From the NCBI GenBank assembly GCA_900343135.1, contig OPYK01000009.1, positions 1 to 64,000 on the forward strand: a DNA stretch of 64,000 bases, written 5' to 3'. Positions 25,647-36,441 of the stretch are shown in pieces. This DNA is from Atopobium massiliense (GTDB lineage Bacteria > Actinomycetota > Coriobacteriia > Coriobacteriales > Atopobiaceae). Made by a program: the position numbers and the translations under genes. The notes beneath the pieces were generated by a model, which worked only from the letters and a program-made list of their open reading frames with translations, was not told the origin of the DNA and did not search any database. Each line of letters begins with the position of its first letter. Position 1 is the stretch's first letter.

Positions 25647-26684
25647 CTACTCCTTTAGCGCGCGACCACCTAGCGAGAAGGAATCAAGCGCACCGTGAGT
25701 CTGAAGATGTGTGTACAGCTCAACAAATTGCGTAGCATGGAGCACTTCGGCTCGAATAGCTGGAGCAAGCTGCATATCACATAAACACGCGCGCGTGATA
25801 TCGGGCGCAATGCCGGCAGCACTCAAACAATTGACGAGCGTTTTGCGGCGCTGCGCAAACGCTGCATCAATAAGCACGCACACACGACGGCGCAATTCAC
25901 CATCGCATACAAGATCTGCAGGCGCATGGCGCTGCAAGGCAATTACCTGCGACGTTACATGCGGCGCGGGCATAAAACTCGATGGCTTTACCACAAACGC
26001 TCCGGCAGGCGCGGCATACAACGCAAGTTTTGCAGAATAAGCGCCATACAGCTTATCGTGTGGTTTTGCCGCCATACGACACGCCACCTCCGACTGCACC
26101 ATAACCGTCATGCGTTCAAGCTGCGGCATGTCCTCAAAATATTGAAGCACAAGCGTGGCTGCAATTTGGTAGGGCAAGTTGGCAACAAGCGCTGCAGGCT
26201 GCGGTATATTCCGCGCCTTACAAAACGCCTGCAGCGATGCAGCATCTACACGCAGCGCATCGCTATGATACACGTGCATAGCGTTTGCATATAACGCGCA
26301 GGTAGAGGCAAGTACGTCGAGCAAATCGTCGTCTTTTTCGATAGCGATAAGCTGACAGTGTTGCTGCAAAAGTGCCAAGCTAAGCGTACCTATGCCAGGA
26401 CCAACCTCAAGCAGGGATGTGTGAGCGCACGGCTGTGCAAGTGCAAGAATTTTGCCGATAACAGCATCGTCCACCAAAAAATTTTGGCCAAGGCGATGCT
26501 TTGCATATAAACCGTGCTGCTCAAGCACGCGGCGCGTGGCGCGCGGATTGGCAAGCGGTGAAAACGGTGCCGCTGCAGCTACAGGTGTTGCTGCGGGTAC
26601 GTCCGCGGCTTCAGGTGCAGAGGGCAAAAACGCGGCACGCTCAACAGATTTTGCAGATAATGACTGGCGCGAGGTGTGCTTCAT
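25647..26684 (-). CDS. rsmA: 16S rRNA dimethyladenosine transferase
   Basis: 345 residues. RsmA (KsgA) dimethylates two adjacent adenines near the 3' end of 16S rRNA during 30S assembly. Signatures: KHRLGQNFLVDDAVI, the SAM-binding LLEVGPGIGTLSLALL and the catalytic VANLPYQIA. The N-terminal ~45 residues are an Ala/Pro-rich extension. Its start codon overlaps the metG stop, and tatD follows by one base. Confidence 0.96.
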   Translation of the reverse strand: MKHTSRQSLSAKSVERAAFLPSAPEAADVPAATPVAAAAPFSPLANPRATRRVLEQHGLYAKHRLGQNFLVDDAVIGKILALAQPCAHTSLLEVGPGIGTLSLALLQQHCQLIAIEKDDDLLDVLASTCALYANAMHVYHSDALRVDAASLQAFCKARNIPQPAALVANLPYQIAATLVLQYFEDMPQLERMTVMVQSEVACRMAAKPHDKLYGAYSAKLALYAAPAGAFVVKPSSFMPAPHVTSQVIALQRHAPADLVCDGELRRRVCVLIDAAFAQRRKTLVNCLSAAGIAPDITRACLCDMQLAPAIRAEVLHATQFVELYTHLQTHGALDSFSLGGRALKE

Positions 26685-28372
26685 TAGTTTTTGGTGTCGA
26701 TTCTAGGGAAGAGCGGCGCGTCACACACAACGGCGCACGGTGCCGAAAGTCCGCCCCAAGCACAGAGCTTTTCGAGAATAAGATCGATGCTCAGGCAACT
26801 GTTAAGAATTTCGGCTTCTGGCTCCAATCCCATACGGCACAAAACTTCGTGCGACGTGTGCGGCATGATTGGTGCCAACAGGTGCGCAGCGATACGAATC
26901 GATTCGAGCAAATTAAGCATAATACGTGCAAGCTGCTGTGCATCCTTGTCATTAGTGGCTGCCGTTTTTGCAAGCGTCCAGGGTGCCATGTCTTCGATGT
27001 AGTGATTTGCCGCGTGAATGAGCTTCATAACAGCCTGTTTTGCATCAGCATAGCGCATCTGTTCCATTGCAGCAGAATACTCTGCAAACAACCCGTCATC
27101 AACAATATCGCGCAGCACATTGTGCTCATCGTGCCAGCCGTCAAAAATTGCGGGCGTTTGTCCATCAAAATACTTAGCACACATCGAAAGCGTGCGCGAA
27201 ACCAAATTACCCCAGCTATTGGCAAGGTCGGCGTTATATACCTGCTTCATACGGTCGAAAGAAATAGCAGAATCTTCACCGTGAATAACATCGCACATAA
27301 AGTAGTAGCGATACCCATCAATGCCAAGCAAGTCGATAACCTCTTGCGGTGCAATAGCGTTACCACGCGATTTCGACATTTTCTCGGCATTGCCCGTTTC
27401 GCTGTTGCGTACCGTTAAAAAGCCGTGCGCAAATACGTGCTCGGGCAGCGCTTCGTTAATTGCCATAAGCATAGCCGGCCAAATAATACAGTGAAAACGA
27501 ATGATGTCCTTGCCCACAACATGGCACTGAGCAGGCCATCTAAAGGCAAATTGGTTTTTGCGGATGGGGTCATCTTCGCCGTAAAACACCGACGTCATGT
27601 AGTTGAGAAGTGCATCAAACCACACGTAGGTAACGTGTTTCGTATCAAACGGTACCGGAATGCCCCAATCAAAACTCGTACGGCTTACCGACAAATCCTG
27701 CAGGCCGCCCTCAACAAAACTGCGCACCTCGTTCATACGAAACGTTGGCTGCACAAAGTCGGGATGCTTGGCATACAGCTCAAGCAGCCTATCTTGGAAC
27801 GCCGAAAGCTTAAAGAAATACGACTCTTCTTCTACGCGCTTGAGCGGACGCTGGCAATCGGGGCACAGGTGCTCATCTGCGCTTTGATGTTCCTGTGCGG
27901 CATGGCTGAGCTGCGTGGGCGTAAAGTAGGTTTCGCACGGCAAACAATACCATCCGTCGTAGGTGCCCTTGTACAAATAGCCCGACTCACGCATACGATT
28001 CCACAGCGTTTGCACTGCTTTATACTGCCGAGGCTCAGTTGTGCGAATAAAATCGTCGTACGAAATATTAAGTGTTTTCCACAAATCCTTAAACAGAGGC
28101 GCTTGTGCATCGCACCACTCTTGCGGAGAGTAGCCGTGCTCCTGCGCCGCCTGCGCAACTTTTTCGCCGTGCTCGTCCATACCCGTTAAAAAGCGCACGT
28201 TATAGCCCATGCTCCGGCGATAGCGTGCCTGCACATCGCACAAAAGCGTGCAATACGCGGTGCCCAAGTGCGGAGCTGCGTTTACATAATAGATAGGCGT
28301 AGTAATGTAATACGACGGCTGATTAAATTCGGGCTGATGCTCGGTAATCATATCGCGAAATTCTTGTGACAT
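26684..28372 (-). CDS. metG: Methionyl-tRNA synthetase
   Basis: 562 residues, class I synthetase charging tRNA-Met. The HIGH-type motif is PHLGTA; the zinc knuckle includes CLPCETYF and CPDCQRPL; the KMSKS loop is KMSKSRGNA. The C-terminal EMAP/tRNA-binding domain of longer MetRS forms is absent, so it is the short form. The ATG at 28372 follows ATAGGAGCG; ten upstream residues are not used. First gene of the metG-rsmA-tatD operon. Confidence 0.97.
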   Translation of the reverse strand: MSQEFRDMITEHQPEFNQPSYYITTPIYYVNAAPHLGTAYCTLLCDVQARYRRSMGYNVRFLTGMDEHGEKVAQAAQEHGYSPQEWCDAQAPLFKDLWKTLNISYDDFIRTTEPRQYKAVQTLWNRMRESGYLYKGTYDGWYCLPCETYFTPTQLSHAAQEHQSADEHLCPDCQRPLKRVEEESYFFKLSAFQDRLLELYAKHPDFVQPTFRMNEVRSFVEGGLQDLSVSRTSFDWGIPVPFDTKHVTYVWFDALLNYMTSVFYGEDDPIRKNQFAFRWPAQCHVVGKDIIRFHCIIWPAMLMAINEALPEHVFAHGFLTVRNSETGNAEKMSKSRGNAIAPQEVIDLLGIDGYRYYFMCDVIHGEDSAISFDRMKQVYNADLANSWGNLVSRTLSMCAKYFDGQTPAIFDGWHDEHNVLRDIVDDGLFAEYSAAMEQMRYADAKQAVMKLIHAANHYIEDMAPWTLAKTAATNDKDAQQLARIMLNLLESIRIAAHLLAPIMPHTSHEVLCRMGLEPEAEILNSCLSIDLILEKLCAWGGLSAPCAVVCDAPLFPRIDTKN

Positions 28373-28471
28373 AAGCGCTCCTATTATGTAACGTACTAAC
28401 ACGGGTCAAACCAACCCACGGCAAAAATATCATACCTGCCTATTGTACTCTAGATTGCGAGCAGGCGCACA

Positions 28472-29371: not shown

Positions 29372-29431
29372 ATATGTGTATTCCTTTATGGTAATAAGAA
29401 AGATAGCTGCAAAAACGAGCGGATAAGGCAG

Positions 29432-30481
29432 CTAGCGTGCACACAGCATGCCACGCTCAAACGACGAAAACGTGGTGCGAGCATCCCACCCCGAGAGGCG
29501 ATTTTCGGTTTTCCACGTTTGGAAAAACCACGCCGCGCACGACTTATACAACGCGAGTTGGTCGGACGTGTAAATGCGCTCGTAAGCAATGTGGCCTTCG
29601 GGCGTAGTAGTGCTTTCAAGACCAGGAAGCGCCGCGCACCAGGTGCCCACCATAACACGGAAACCCGTTTTTTCTGCCTGTGCAATGTAGCTGCGCGCAT
29701 GCTGCACGAGCTGTTGCATCGACATAATTCCCGTCATGCCAAAATAGTCGTCAAAATGGTCAAGGTGCACGTCAATCATAGTGTTTTTGTAATGACCCGC
29801 CGCCATAAACTGTTTCCAAGCAAGCGGCTTTTGCGCGTCGGGCATAATAACAAACACGTCATCTCCGGCGTAGGTGCGAATGGTGCGATAGGCTTCGCGA
29901 TAATAATTACGCAGCTGATGAAAGGCCACACCACCGCTCGTGTGAAAACCAACACGCTGCTTTACCTTAGGATTTGACGCAACTTCTATACCAGCAAGTG
30001 CAGCGCGAAATGCGTAGCGCTTTGCAAGTGCGGCAAGCACGTTAATCATCTGCGGTTTGTATTCGGTAAACGACGAAAATTCGGGCACGACATCGGCAAG
30101 TTTGCCTTCGTTACCAGGTTGAATATTAAGCACCATAATAATTTTAAGACCAAGCTCATCGGCCCAATCAAAGGCATTATCAAGCACGTCGGCACAGCCA
30201 ATAAACGGGCCTTTAATAGGTCCGGCATTGCCAAACACATACCACGGAACGCTTATGCGCACAGCATTAAACCCGCGCGCAGCAATATTCTTAAAATCGT
30301 CCTCGTCAATAAAATACGTGCGATGAGCACGAATGAGCTCGTCATATTCTTCATGCGAAAGCACCTGAACCAAGCCCAGCTCATCTAAGGTGTTTGCCTG
30401 AGCAAAATACTCAGATGAAATCCAGGGTTCAAGAGAAAGCCAACCTGTGAGATTAACGCCGTGCAAAGCAACGTTAGACAT
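29432..30481 (-). CDS. GH5-fold protein, apparently lacking both catalytic glutamates
   Basis: 349 residues resembling family-5 exo-beta-1,3-glucanases: LHGVNLTGWL at the start, FNAVRISVPW (71-80) and IDVHLDHFDDYF (236-247) in the usual places. Where active members have GIELLNEP, this protein has GIEVASNP (164-171), and where they have VGEWS it has VGTWC (278-282). Acid/base and nucleophile Glu thus seem replaced by Asn 170 and Thr 280. No signal peptide is visible, so it is cytoplasmic. It may bind sugar without cleaving it. The start has a GGAAGGACGAGG site. The family call is good; the inactivity is inferred by eye. Confidence 0.75.
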   Translation of the reverse strand: MSNVALHGVNLTGWLSLEPWISSEYFAQANTLDELGLVQVLSHEEYDELIRAHRTYFIDEDDFKNIAARGFNAVRISVPWYVFGNAGPIKGPFIGCADVLDNAFDWADELGLKIIMVLNIQPGNEGKLADVVPEFSSFTEYKPQMINVLAALAKRYAFRAALAGIEVASNPKVKQRVGFHTSGGVAFHQLRNYYREAYRTIRTYAGDDVFVIMPDAQKPLAWKQFMAAGHYKNTMIDVHLDHFDDYFGMTGIMSMQQLVQHARSYIAQAEKTGFRVMVGTWCAALPGLESTTTPEGHIAYERIYTSDQLALYKSCAAWFFQTWKTENRLSGWDARTTFSSFERGMLCAR

Positions 30482-30617: not shown

Positions 30618-31163
30618 TTACAGCTCGTTTACATGCGACGGCGAAACCATGCAGCGTGCAGCAGCAGCGTCGTCGGTGTTAAGCGTAGATGGCACGCCAA
30701 GCATTTCTTCAAGCGTGCGCCAGGCAAGCTCGGCACACTTTACACGCGCAGGCATGTGTGAAATATCTTTGAGCAGCGCCGCGTCATCAAGCTGCGCTAC
30801 ATCGTCGTCCTCGCGTAGCTCCCCTCGAATCATGCGGCCAAAAAGGCCACACATAGCTCCTGCTTGAGCAGGTGTTTTATCGAGAATACAATCGCACATC
30901 ATGTCGGCAGACGCTTGCGAAATAGCACAGCCGTGCCCCTGGTAAGACGCGTCGGTAATACGCGCGGCATCGCCTTCGCCCTCAACTACCAGGTAAAACG
31001 TGAGCTCATCGCCGCAGGAGGGGTTTACCCCTTCGTGTGTGTGCGTGGGCTTCTCAATCACATAGTTGTAATCGGGATGATTTACGTGATCCATAAAAAG
31101 CGCATTGTAAATATTGCCCGCACCAGCCGCGGAACTTTGTGCCATTGATGGTGTGTTATCCAT
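30618..31163 (-). CDS. sufU: Fe-S assembly protein SufU
   Basis: 181 residues. SufU is the zinc-dependent sulfur acceptor for SufS in Gram-positive bacteria. The three zinc-ligand cysteines are in NPSCGDE, GHGCAIS and VKCAELAW, with the usual spacer insertion before the third. The ATG at 31163 with GGAAGG overlaps the last 8 bases of sufS; the upstream extension is not used. Last gene of the SUF operon. Confidence 0.95.
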   Translation of the reverse strand: MDNTPSMAQSSAAGAGNIYNALFMDHVNHPDYNYVIEKPTHTHEGVNPSCGDELTFYLVVEGEGDAARITDASYQGHGCAISQASADMMCDCILDKTPAQAGAMCGLFGRMIRGELREDDDVAQLDDAALLKDISHMPARVKCAELAWRTLEEMLGVPSTLNTDDAAAARCMVSPSHVNEL

Positions 31164-32415
31164 GAAAAACCTTCCATACCTGCTGCAATGCATCTGCAAG
31201 CTGTTCGATATCGTGTGCATCGTTATAAAATGCAATACTCGCGCGACAAGTGCTCTGCAAGCCCATCGACACAAGCAGGGGCTGCGCGCAATGATGACCT
31301 GCGCGAATGCACACCTGATGCGCGTCTAAAATAGACGACACATCGTGCGGGTGAATGCCAGAAACATTAAACGACACAACACCTACGTGGCGCGCGCCTT
31401 CAGCAGGGCCGTACACGTCAACAAAGTCGAGCGCAGAGAGCGTGTCATATAAATATCGTGAAAGGAGCTGCTCACGCGCTTCAAGCGCATGCATGTCGTG
31501 TTCCTGCAAATAGGCAACTGCCTTGCCAAACGCATAAATGCCAGCAGCATCCTGCGTGCCAGCCTCAAACTTTTCGGGTGCAGGCGCCCAGGTAGCATGA
31601 TCTTCGCTTACTTGTTCAATCATTTCGCCACCCGTTAAAAATACAGGCAACATGCTAAGCAACTCAGATGATGCCCACAGCACGCCCACGCCAAAAGGAC
31701 CAAGCATTTTGTGACCCGAAAACGCGAGCACGTCGGCATTCAAATCGTGCACGGAAATGGGCAGATGCGGCACACTTTGCGCGCCATCAACCACCATGTA
31801 AGCACCGTGCGCGTGCGCAACTTGTGCGATGCGCGCAATATCATTTTGCACGCCAAGCACGTTGGACACCTGCGTTACCGAAACAATTTTTGTACGATTA
31901 GTAATGGTAGAAGCAAGCTCATCATCACGTATGCAAAAATTCTCATCAAAGCGCAGGTATTTGAGGTGTGCGCCATGTGCACGACATACCTCTTGCCACG
32001 GAATAAGGTTGGAGTGATGCTCCATGCCCGAAATAACAACCTCATCGCCCGGCTGCAAACACAGCGTTGCCAAACTTGCTGCAATAAGGTTGAGCGATTC
32101 GGTTGTATTGCGAGTAAACACAATTTCCTCGGGTTTGGGATTACCGCTCGCATCGGTGGCACCAATAAACTCTGCAACACGTCTGCGTGCGTCGTCGATG
32201 CCGCGCGTAGCTGCAACCGAAAGCCCGTACAAACCACGAAGCGGGTTAGCGTTCATGGTGGTATAAAACTCGGTAAGTGCCTCGATAACTGTGTGCGGAC
32301 GCTGAGCGGTCGCCGCGCTGTCGAGGTATGCAAGCTGCGGATTTGCAGCCAAGAGCGGAAAATCTGCCTTATACGGATTTGCCGCGATCGCAGCATACTG
32401 AGCATCGGTAAGCAT
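31156..32415 (-). CDS. sufS: Cysteine desulfurase SufS
   Basis: 419-residue class II PLP-dependent cysteine desulfurase, giving persulfide sulfur for Fe-S clusters. The PLP lysine is in AFSGHKMLGPFG and the catalytic Cys in RAGHHCAQPLL. It lies 183 bases after sufD, a gap with no clear promoter or terminator, and overlaps sufU by 8 bases. Confidence 0.97.
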   Translation of the reverse strand: MLTDAQYAAIAANPYKADFPLLAANPQLAYLDSAATAQRPHTVIEALTEFYTTMNANPLRGLYGLSVAATRGIDDARRRVAEFIGATDASGNPKPEEIVFTRNTTESLNLIAASLATLCLQPGDEVVISGMEHHSNLIPWQEVCRAHGAHLKYLRFDENFCIRDDELASTITNRTKIVSVTQVSNVLGVQNDIARIAQVAHAHGAYMVVDGAQSVPHLPISVHDLNADVLAFSGHKMLGPFGVGVLWASSELLSMLPVFLTGGEMIEQVSEDHATWAPAPEKFEAGTQDAAGIYAFGKAVAYLQEHDMHALEAREQLLSRYLYDTLSALDFVDVYGPAEGARHVGVVSFNVSGIHPHDVSSILDAHQVCIRAGHHCAQPLLVSMGLQSTCRASIAFYNDAHDIEQLADALQQVWKVFHG

Positions 32416-32598
32416 GTACTACAATCTCCCTTACGAGCACCCCGAACGCACAACAAAAACGCTGCTTATGCGGGGTGCAAGATGTGACTTATGAAACGTG
32501 CAAGCACAAAGCGCAGACGCAAACGCGGATGCGGACATCCACACATGGTTGAACATGAACGCACATAACAACACGTCCGCGCGCTGCACGCTGATGGT

Positions 32599-33825
32599 TT
32601 AGTCTTCGATAGCACCGTGAACTTCGTACGAGTACGCACGATCGTCACCAAGCGCATCGTGAAAGTCGTCGGCAACTTCGTCGCCCATAATGGTACGTGC
32701 ATAGGCAAGCACGGCCTCACGTGATGCAGCATCGGGCGCATGAATGGCGGCATCGTCGAAAATAGCACGTTCAAACAGCTCGTTTGCTTCCTCTTCGGTA
32801 AGACCGCGATCGGAAAGATACCCAAGCTGTTCTGGCCCTATCGAACCAATGGAAGCGCCGTGGTTACCCATTACGTCGTCCTCATCGCACAAAATAACAG
32901 GCAGAGTTTCGTTGCGCACGTCGTCTGATGCGACAAGCACAGTTTCGGCTTCGTTTCCTTTTGAACCCTTGGCACCATGTACAAGGTCGATAGTTTCGCG
33001 CAAAGTTTTGTGCGCTCTATCATACAAAATACCATTTGAAAGCATGGTGCAGCGCGTATTGCGGCCGCGCTGACGCGCAATGTGGTTAATATCCAAGCGC
33101 TCGTCGCCGCGTACCAAATAGCGCAGCATAAGGTCGAGACGACACGAAGCACCTTGCATGTTTGTTTCAAACCCAAACGCCACTTGCTTGCCACCCAGCG
33201 CATACTGATGTACGTCAACATGGGCACGATCATCGAGCTGCAAACCGGTACCCTGCAAGTGCTGGTGCGTGTCGCTCATCGCAACAATTTCAACCAAATG
33301 CAAGGTGGCATCGCGCTCAACAATGATGCGCGCCACGTTTGCCGAGGACGTTTCCTTATTTGACGTTGCGTGCGAAACAAGCACAACACACGCCTCAGCG
33401 CCCTCGCGAATGAGAATACCGCTATCTTTCATTTCGTTATTATCGGCATTTACGTTAAGCACAATGGGCTTTTCGGCATGCTGACCTTTTGGCACCTCAT
33501 AAAAGTGAGAATCGGGCGCAACCGAATCGATCCACGCCTGTGCCTCGTTGCCCAAGCCATAGGGCACACGGTCGAATAGCTGCGGCAAGCGCGCATACAG
33601 CGAGCCTGAAACGCGACCTTGAGGAAGCGTAAAAGTAACATTGTTTACGTTGAGATAATTCCACGTTTGCGCAGGTGGCGTGTTTACGCGGATGTCAACC
33701 GTTTTGGTAGTATCGGCATGCATCGAAACTTCATCGGTAAAGCCCGAAACAGAATGCGACGTTGGTTGGTCTAAAGCTGCAGCGGAAGTAGAGGATAACT
33801 CAGATTTTGCGTGTTGTGTGTCCAT
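32599..33825 (-). CDS. sufD: Fe-S scaffold protein SufD
   Basis: 408 residues, partner of SufB in the SufBC2D scaffold. The beta-helical core and C-terminal helices are recognisable: ASIGSIGPEQLGYLSDRGLTEEEA matches the family's HGAAVGQLDEEALFYLRSRGI-like region, with the usual His replaced. Start ATG overlaps the sufB stop (TAATG) after GGAAGGAG, so translation is coupled. Confidence 0.94.
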   Translation of the reverse strand: MDTQHAKSELSSTSAAALDQPTSHSVSGFTDEVSMHADTTKTVDIRVNTPPAQTWNYLNVNNVTFTLPQGRVSGSLYARLPQLFDRVPYGLGNEAQAWIDSVAPDSHFYEVPKGQHAEKPIVLNVNADNNEMKDSGILIREGAEACVVLVSHATSNKETSSANVARIIVERDATLHLVEIVAMSDTHQHLQGTGLQLDDRAHVDVHQYALGGKQVAFGFETNMQGASCRLDLMLRYLVRGDERLDINHIARQRGRNTRCTMLSNGILYDRAHKTLRETIDLVHGAKGSKGNEAETVLVASDDVRNETLPVILCDEDDVMGNHGASIGSIGPEQLGYLSDRGLTEEEANELFERAIFDDAAIHAPDAASREAVLAYARTIMGDEVADDFHDALGDDRAYSYEVHGAIED

Positions 33826-35354
33826 TATCCAATTGCTCCTTCCATCTCGAGCTTAATGAGGTTATTCATTTCAACGGCATATTCAAGCGGCAACTCTTTT
33901 GAAACAGGGTTGGCAAAACCGTTTACCACCATCGTTCGAGCCTCAGCCTCAGAACAGCCACGGCTCATCAAATACAAAATGGTGTCGTCGGAAATGCGAC
34001 CAATAGTTGCCTCATGACCAACGCTTGCGGTAGCACAACGCACGTCGTTTGCCGGGATAGTATCCGAACGGCTAATGTCGTCGAGCATAAGCGACTGGCA
34101 GCTCACCGACGCAGTTGCATGGTGCGCATGCTTGCCTACCACCATTGATGAGCGGAAGGTATTAATGCCGCCGTCTTTGGAGATTGATTTTGTATCAACC
34201 GATGTTTTTGTATTGGCACCGTTCATAATAATTTTGCAGCCGGTATCGAGGTTTTGCGTAGCACCCGCAAAGGTAATGCCCGTAAACTCGCACACACTGC
34301 CCGCGCCTTGCAAAATGGTGGTTGGGTACAAATACGAAACGTGGCTTCCAAACGAACCACTCACCCACTCCATGCGCGAGTTTTCGCCAATAAGCGCGCG
34401 CTTGGTGTTGAGGTTGTACATGTTTTTAGACCAGTTTTCGATGGTTGAATACCGCAGGCGGGCGTTGTCACCTACAAACAGCTCAACAGCACCGGCGTGG
34501 AGGTTTGCCTCGTAGTATTTAGGCGCAGAGCAGCCCTCAATAAAGTGCAGGTCGGCGCCGTCTTCTACGATAATAAGCGTGTGCTCAAACTGACCTGCGC
34601 TCGAAGCATTTAAGCGAAAATAGCTTTGCAGTGGATACGAAAGCGTAACGCCGCGGGGCACATACACAAACGAACCGCCCGACCACACAGCATAGTGCAA
34701 CGCGGCAAACTTGTGGTCTTTAAGCGGAATGAGCTTGGAAAAATACTTGTGTACTACAGGCTCCCAGGTGGGATCGTGTAGCGCATCTTCAATAGTGGTA
34801 TACACCACGCCCTGCTTGGCCACGTCGTCACGCATGTTGTGATACACAATTTCGGAGTCGTACTGTGCGCCAACACCCGCCAAACTTTTACGCTCAGCCT
34901 CAGGAATACCCAAACGCTCAAACGTTTGCTTAATATCTTTTGGCACATCGTCCCAGCTACGCGCCTGTTTTGTGTTGGGGCTTACGTAGGTTGAAATGTG
35001 GTCCATATCCAAGCCCCCACAATCGGGACCCCAGTTAGGCGCCATATCAATGTGATGAAAAATATCAAGCGCGTCAAGACGCAGCTTGAGCATCCATTCA
35101 GGCTCTTCCTTTTTTGCCGAGATAGAACGAACAATATCGGGTGTAAGACCATCGGCATAGCGCTCGTAGCCGTCTTCACTCATAACAAAGTCGTAAAGCG
35201 ACCGGTCGACATCAGCAATGTCGCTTCTGCCTTTTTCGTCAAGTCCAACATTAGAATTGGAGCCGCGACCTGCATATTCGTCCTGCCCCGACTGTTCATC
35301 AAAGATATCGGTTTGTGCGTGTTCGGCTATCTCGATAAGAGATTTATCTTTCAT
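33825..35354 (-). CDS. sufB: Fe-S scaffold protein SufB
   Basis: 509 residues, about 35-40 longer than usual because of an N-terminal acidic extension. Core features: YVPRGVTLSYPLQSYFRLNA, the SAPKYYEANLHAGAVELF region with the family cysteine just before it (EGCSAP), and SVGHEATIGRISDDTILYLMSRG near the end. It accepts sulfur and assembles clusters with SufC and SufD. The start lies directly after the sufC stop. Confidence 0.97.
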   Translation of the reverse strand: MKDKSLIEIAEHAQTDIFDEQSGQDEYAGRGSNSNVGLDEKGRSDIADVDRSLYDFVMSEDGYERYADGLTPDIVRSISAKKEEPEWMLKLRLDALDIFHHIDMAPNWGPDCGGLDMDHISTYVSPNTKQARSWDDVPKDIKQTFERLGIPEAERKSLAGVGAQYDSEIVYHNMRDDVAKQGVVYTTIEDALHDPTWEPVVHKYFSKLIPLKDHKFAALHYAVWSGGSFVYVPRGVTLSYPLQSYFRLNASSAGQFEHTLIIVEDGADLHFIEGCSAPKYYEANLHAGAVELFVGDNARLRYSTIENWSKNMYNLNTKRALIGENSRMEWVSGSFGSHVSYLYPTTILQGAGSVCEFTGITFAGATQNLDTGCKIIMNGANTKTSVDTKSISKDGGINTFRSSMVVGKHAHHATASVSCQSLMLDDISRSDTIPANDVRCATASVGHEATIGRISDDTILYLMSRGCSEAEARTMVVNGFANPVSKELPLEYAVEMNNLIKLEMEGAIG

Positions 35355-36137
35355 TTATGCCTCGCGCTTCTTTTTATCTGCAAGCTTTTCGCTAAGCAGC
35401 TCTTCGTATTCGCCAAAGCCGTGAGTATCAATGTGGTCGATAAGCGACGCAGGTCCTTCGGCCATGATGCGTCCCTTTACCATAACGTGCGTGCAATCGA
35501 CATTAAGACGCTCAAGAATACGCGTGTTGTGTGTAATCATAAGGAGCGCACCTGCGCAATCTTGACGATAGGCTTCAATACCCTTGGACACAATGGCAAG
35601 TGCGTCAACATCCAAACCCGAATCGGTTTCGTCGAGAATAGCAAGTTTTGGACGAAGTAAAAGCAGCTGTAACATTTCTACTTTTTTCTTTTCGCCGCCC
35701 GAAAAACCAACGTTGAGCTCGCGTGTAAGGAACGATTCATCCATTTCGAGTTTTTCGGAAATTTCGGAAACGCGCTCACGGAACTTACGCGCAGAGAGCT
35801 TAAGCTCGGGACGCTTTTGACAAATGGTACGCAAAAAGCTGTAAAGCGGCACACCGGGAACTTCAATGGGCGCCTGATACGACAAGAACAACCCCGCAAG
35901 CGAACGCTTATCGCAGGTAGTTTGAGTGATGTCTTCACCGTTAAAGGTTACGCTACCTTCGGTTACGTGATATACAGGGTCGCCCATAATAACATGGCCA
36001 AGGGTTGATTTACCTGCACCGTTAGGCCCCATCATGACGTGAGTTTCGCCTGCTTTGATATGGAGTTGTATGTCATGCAAAATAGGCTTATCTTCTGTAC
36101 CTGCATGCAGGTGAGAAACTGTGAGTAAGTCTGACAT
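35355..36137 (-). CDS. sufC: Fe-S assembly ATPase SufC
   Basis: 260-residue ABC-type ATPase of the SufBC2D complex. Walker A is GPNGAGKST, the signature LNVGFSGGEKKKVEML and Walker B LAILDETDSGLD, all typical of SufC. The ATG at 36137 follows AAAGGAAGG; the 20 upstream residues in the open frame are not used. First gene of sufCBDSU, the order typical of Coriobacteriia and many Firmicutes. Confidence 0.97.
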   Translation of the reverse strand: MSDLLTVSHLHAGTEDKPILHDIQLHIKAGETHVMMGPNGAGKSTLGHVIMGDPVYHVTEGSVTFNGEDITQTTCDKRSLAGLFLSYQAPIEVPGVPLYSFLRTICQKRPELKLSARKFRERVSEISEKLEMDESFLTRELNVGFSGGEKKKVEMLQLLLLRPKLAILDETDSGLDVDALAIVSKGIEAYRQDCAGALLMITHNTRILERLNVDCTHVMVKGRIMAEGPASLIDHIDTHGFGEYEELLSEKLADKKKREA

Positions 36138-36441
36138 GAGCACCTTCCTTTGAGTAATGGCATCTCGTAAAATATAAAAACGCACGCGGATGCGCACGTA
36201 TAGCGCGATGTATGTATAGATTAATCCTACCCGCGTGTGTTTCGTTTAAGCTCAACAGCGCGCATGTTCATTAAAGTTTTATAACGCGCCACGTGTAGGT
36301 GCGAGTGCTGGTGCTTGTGCAGAAGTGTCTGTGATGGTAGGCACGCACGCGCACGGCAGTATTGTTCTTATGAGTTTATCCGATTTGGGCAGCTGCAATG
36401 CGGGTATACTCAAAGCACCTACCATATGTAAAGGAGCAGCT
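36138..36441. promoter_or_regulatory. Divergent promoter region between sufC and the ArsC-like gene
   Basis: 304 bases between divergent starts, so it should carry both promoters. No Rrf2/IscR-type or other operator is convincing, and no clear -35/-10 pair stands out. GC-rich tracts with GCGCG repeats dominate the sufC side. Confidence 0.4.

Follow-up and report, generated by a model that had tools for sequence, protein, structure and literature searches.

We found that the window (the whole stretch of 64,000 nucleotides of Atopobium massiliense DNA analysed here) encodes an old, selected and vertically kept pseudoenzyme with a GH5 fold, whose gene (pseudo-GH5) lies directly upstream of rsmI. 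The co-occurrence with rsmI in two bacterial families suggests recruitment to a non-enzymatic job, and we consider it probable that the product acts in the cytoplasm as a binding protein and is co-expressed with RsmI. The features on which the analysis is based are the following:

29432..30481, minus strand: pseudo-GH5 gene, 349 aa, with Asn170 at the acid/base position and Thr280 at the nucleophile position, without signal peptide
29969..29992, minus strand: codons 164-171, GIEVASNP, where the NEP acid/base motif stands in enzymes
29636..29650, minus strand: codons 278-282, VGTWC, where the GEW nucleophile motif stands in enzymes
29477..29530, minus strand: codons 318-335, WFFQTWKTENRLSGWDAR, the family signature WFFQTWKT..WDAR, with Gln321 at the place of the -1 Trp of GH5 enzymes
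29372..29431, minus strand: 60-base gap from the pseudo-GH5 stop codon to the rsmI start codon
28472..29371, minus strand: rsmI, 16S rRNA (cytidine1402-2'-O)-methyltransferase (TIGR00096, 213.5 bits, cut-off 167.9)
26684..28402, minus strand: metG, methionine--tRNA ligase, next downstream, adjoining rsmI also in many relatives

The open reading frame is intact, and its ATG is preceded by GGAAGGACGAGG, which makes a good start site. A search of the genome of the organism (1.55 Mb) revealed no second copy, the sole match being the window gene. The protein matches Pfam Cellulase (PF00150) with 27.5 bits against a cut-off of 23.5, which places it in the GH5 sequence family, and an NCBIfam search assigned it to no family. 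AlphaFold2 models it as a beta/alpha barrel (mean pLDDT 83.6, pTM 0.86), with low confidence at residues 247-250 and 328-349. A fold search with this model gave as best match 6zb8/6zb9, an exo-beta-1,3-glucanase from the moose rumen microbiome (Z 36, rmsd 2.6 Å over 326 residues, 28% identity over the fold match), which is also the best sequence match (E 1.2e-35; profile 7e-52) and which we take to belong to GH5_44. The 17 top-ranked entries are exo-beta-1,3-glucanases and rutinosidases with this (beta/alpha)8 fold. Fungal exo-beta-1,3-glucanases (Candida Exg, 1cz1 and mutants, GH5_9; Aspergillus oryzae AoBgl, 8z2w) share the same barrel with Z 31-33, and the WKTEN-like end of strand 8 is common to them and the window protein. 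The GH5 fold claimed in the preliminary description is thus upheld by both the Pfam score and the overlay of the model on 6zb9. So is its suggestion of a cytoplasmic protein with no signal peptide, as approximately the first 60 residues contain no hydrophobic segment, the highest mean hydropathy of any 19 consecutive residues there being 0.69.

The register of the active site was fixed by the mutants made by the depositors of 6zb8 (E167Q/E295Q) and 3n9k (E292S). The two mutated positions of 6zb8 align to Asn170 and Thr280, so that Glu167 and Glu295 of the enzyme correspond to Asn170 and Thr280 in the window protein, and the nucleophile position of 3n9k aligns to Thr280 as well. Both catalytic glutamates are therefore replaced, as had been proposed, and the numbering given with that proposal was correct. 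The conserved active-site set of GH5 comprises eight residues. The window protein keeps two (Arg75 and His239) and has replaced the other six: His119 by Asn, Asn169 by Ser, Glu170 by Asn, Tyr241 by Asp, Glu280 by Thr and Trp321 by Gln. The Trp at position 321 is, we assume, the platform of the -1 sugar in GH5. Trp323 was considered as the -1 Trp and ruled out: with the offset of 3n9k fixed by E292S, the -1 Trp of fungal Exg (W363, by alignment and numbering offset) aligns to Gln321, and of the two proteins only that of the window has lost the catalytic residues. The window protein therefore lacks the catalytic glutamates that an active GH5 retaining glycosidase carries after strands 4 and 7, and the alignment suggests that it is inactive as a hydrolase.

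In order to describe the family we searched whole genomes. The gene was detected in 133 of 140 Atopobiaceae genomes (99 of the 101 good ones), a few of these matches being weak, partial or to a paralog only (e.g. G082, G129, G139), and in all 65 genomes (57/57 good ones) of a second family belonging to the same order. It is single-copy as a rule and near-universal in these two related families. A scan of named genomes listed 47 relatives, under titles naming Olsenella, Atopobium, Lancefieldella, Tractidigestivibacter, Olegusella, Atopobiaceae and kin, or uncultured Coriobacteriaceae/actinobacteria; our use of the names Atopobiaceae and Coriobacteriales for the searched genomes follows these titles. 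In a sample of the class, 170 of 396 genomes had matches, with none among the 17 genomes of a third family (f2) listed from it; beyond the class, weak matches alone appeared, in 12 of the 396 genomes of a phylum sample. One copy of Atopobiaceae type (G291:C124:522-1559) lies in a second-family genome that has its own copy and is probably contamination.

The gene is absent from all five genomes of genus g31 (G077-G081), three of them at least 97% complete. We found rsmI in four of the five, with no trace of a GH5 gene in flanks of ~1.5 kb or less. The RsmI tree places this genus, with moderate support, within the window's family, so the absence indicates loss, and since rsmI is recovered from four of the five, pseudo-GH5 is dispensable in some organisms. 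Genus g31 offers a natural knock-out for comparison.

Two genera of the window's family, g30 and g35, also have second GH5 genes (L124-L143) whose catalytic residues are all intact, one of which (L142, G072:C27) contains an in-frame TAG. In the second family, the active-type GH5 genes L157 and L158 keep both NEP and GEW.

We then compared 95 distinct orthologs, 75 from the window's family (window included) and 20 from the second family, the latter drawn from the 65 gene-bearing genomes. None has the full eight-residue set (range kept, 1-6), which is intact in 19/19 paralogs in the same alignment. Two hallmarks are missing from every ortholog: the active-site His119 (0/95) and the -1 Trp321 (0/95), replaced by Gln in 92 and always by Gln, Asn or Arg. 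Arg75 is present in 95/95 and His239 in 93/95, Tyr241 is kept in 71, and Asn169 in only 7. The glutamates are lost unevenly, Glu170 being kept in 42 and Glu280 in 45 orthologs, and both in 19 that belong to early Atopobiaceae branches. In the second family (f3), all 20 retain Glu280 but have Ser or Thr in place of Glu170. The 50 rows of the window clade without Glu280 have Lys (34), Ala (13), Thr (2) or Ser (1) instead. In 31/34 of the Lys280 proteins, position 170 or 241 is acidic, and a salt bridge may thus span the old active site. The whole family is thus degenerate at two hallmark sites, and its branches then diverged in further losses. Conservation of Asn170 and Thr280 in close homologs, named as a check in the preliminary description, is not supported, as the pair occurs in only 2 of the 95, the window and L027.

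The protein could still be an enzyme of altered chemistry, with, for example, Asp241 or a bound anion or water standing in for the lost carboxylates, or retain weak activity in the members with both glutamates. Asp is found at the active-site Tyr position 241 in the window and 14 other orthologs, both glutamates persist in 19/95, where weak hydrolysis is conceivable, and Glu166 and Asp237 are nearly invariant among the orthologs. However, the active paralogs show the same invariance at Glu166 and Asp237, so these two do not serve as replacement acids; Asp241, present in 15/95 only, has no obvious second acid as partner; and the His and the Trp are gone in 95/95. We consider a surviving enzyme decidedly unlikely, and the binding protein remains our preferred reading.

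To follow the losses, we built a GH5 tree with the catalytic columns left out. The loss of Glu280 takes one change on this tree, but two quick RsmI trees require 7 and 6, respectively. With 49 rows held together the likelihood was better by 9.9, and the constraint was not rejected (p-AU 0.625). A single loss of the nucleophile is compatible with these results, though not proven by them. On the same GH5 tree Glu170 takes 15 changes. The window is nested inside the Lys280 proteins, which makes Lys, and not Glu, the probable predecessor of its Thr280.

Selection was estimated from 64 close pairs of relatives, which share sequences and are not independent, with a median dN/dS of 0.077; four of them are pairs of active-type paralogs, with values of 0.12-0.16. 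In 35 pairs without the nucleophile the median is 0.05 and the maximum 0.113, values that concern relatives only, as the window has no close relative. Purifying selection is therefore strong where the nucleophile has been lost. A decaying gene carried along by rsmI could nevertheless be argued from the branch of the window, at 0.76 longer than any other in the GH5 tree, and from changes in the window protein at several otherwise conserved residues, such as Met in place of Trp235 and Arg in place of Pro275. But the RsmI and MetG proteins encoded in this genome have evolved rapidly too, ranking second and first in their respective clades, so that the long branch largely reflects the rate of the lineage and is no sign of decay. 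The low dN/dS of the relatives, a frame free of stop codons and near-universal retention also speak against decay. We reject it as very improbable, in agreement with the preliminary description, which had argued against it. The suggestion of a pseudoenzyme made there is likewise supported by the missing active-site set, the retention across genomes and the low dN/dS: the glycosidase fold has lost its catalytic residues and is kept by selection.

The linkage to rsmI, absent from the preliminary description, is the strongest functional clue. In 122/122 ortholog rows (L002-L123; 95 distinct loci) the next gene downstream is RsmI-like and has the same orientation, with 0-266 bases between the aligned parts of the two genes, while the gene upstream of pseudo-GH5 varies (14 loci compared). 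No rsmI was found near the active-type paralogs (0/20 loci, 3.7-7 kb fetched). In the window, the upstream neighbour is a SUF iron-sulphur cluster operon (30618-36197, minus strand), with SufU and SufS identified by NCBIfam; judging from their sequences, its other members are presumably SufD, SufB and SufC. At four other loci (L035, L041, L044, L045) a 6-pyruvoyl tetrahydropterin synthase family gene lies just upstream (PF01242 match for the L041 copy). We take this gene to be QueD-like, in which case genes related to RNA modification may stand on both sides of pseudo-GH5.

The main rival reading makes the barrel a partner of RsmI or the ribosome, a scaffold or regulator of 16S rRNA C1402 methylation or of small-subunit maturation. 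Besides the constant rsmI beside a changing upstream gene, it can draw on metG and rsmA, which often come after rsmI, and on gaps of 0-3 bases between the aligned parts in one group (L021-L023, L026, L028, L030, L037 and L048), which suggest translational coupling. On the other hand, RsmI works without the GH5 protein, since rsmI is present without pseudo-GH5 in g31 and in all 8 sampled f2 genomes, and operon neighbours are not required to interact. Moreover, no GH5-RsmI fusion was found, the one candidate, an 842-residue open frame at G111, having been ruled out as two overlapping frames. We regard such a partnership as possible, if on the unlikely side.

For the binding protein that we favour, the conserved residues indicate where contacts could be made. 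In forty columns the orthologs, unlike the active paralogs, reach a conservation of at least 95%, and many of these columns fall at 318-335. The WFFQTWKT..WDAR patch, taken together with Arg75, Asp237 and His239, suggests a pocket that has been remodelled or a surface for contacts. The sugar binding proposed in the preliminary description may occur, though the case for it is now somewhat weaker. Arg75, His239 and Asp237 persist, as does Glu18 in most orthologs, but every member has lost the Trp platform and the His, so that enzyme-like glucan binding should not be assumed.

We envisage that a GH5 barrel resembling exo-beta-1,3-glucanases came to lie upstream of rsmI in an ancestor shared by Atopobiaceae and the sister family, and that the barrel lost its active-site His and its -1 Trp in that ancestor or shortly afterwards. 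Selection would then have kept the barrel as a binding protein, no longer a hydrolase. Afterwards the sister family would have lost the acid/base (Ser/Thr170), and the branch leading to the window the nucleophile (Lys/Ala/Thr280). The most likely target would be a small ligand (a glucoside, another polyol or a phosphate) or a protein surface, contacted through the remodelled barrel mouth (Arg75, Asp237, His239, Gln321, Thr322, Trp323 and Lys324). The level of pseudo-GH5 would be tied to that of RsmI through co-transcription.

Inactive GH5 clades have already been reported. According to PMC3526467, GH5_30 is a subfamily wholly without catalytic residues, exclusively fungal, of five members and placed among mannan-related subfamilies, and subgroups near GH5_1 and GH5_8 also lack them. 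Pseudo-GH5 resembles GH5_30, as reported there, in being an entire clade without the catalytic machinery, but differs in its kinship with exo-beta-1,3-glucanases and in that the orthologs found are all bacterial, from two families of one order. The same source describes Rsi24C-GH5 of Clostridium thermocellum, an extracellular binding module fused to an anti-sigma factor, which has lost the acid/base and binds cellulose. It is, like the window protein, a bacterial GH5 without the acid/base, whereas the window protein is free, cytoplasmic and unfused. Klotho (GH1) and YKL-39 (GH18) are described in PMC7828330 as animal pseudoglycosidases reused to bind protein or sugar; they too are dead glycosidase barrels, but share no recent common descent with pseudo-GH5. 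The main text of PMC3526467 contains none of the names Atopobium, Collinsella, Olsenella and Coriobacter-, and its inactive GH5 clades are not described as belonging to these bacteria, and a literature search on pseudoglycosidases, GH5, and Coriobacteria with rsmI, made mostly outside subscription journals, found no description of the family. The dead glycosidases that we found described are extracellular, parts of larger proteins or small clades, and pseudo-GH5 is near-universal and linked to rRNA methylation.

As the protein passes the Pfam cut-off, automatic annotation is likely to call the gene a cellulase or glucanase, wrongly. The family also provides a natural series for the passage from enzyme to binding protein, with members that keep both glutamates, have lost one, or have lost both. 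In a more speculative and, in our estimate, unlikely extension, a former glucanase barrel would have become, in two families of Coriobacteriales, a core protein that is part of the translation machinery, as a dedicated partner or a ligand-sensing regulator of RsmI. If this were true, a cytoplasmic sugar or metabolite would be coupled, via RsmI, to C1402 methylation of 16S rRNA.
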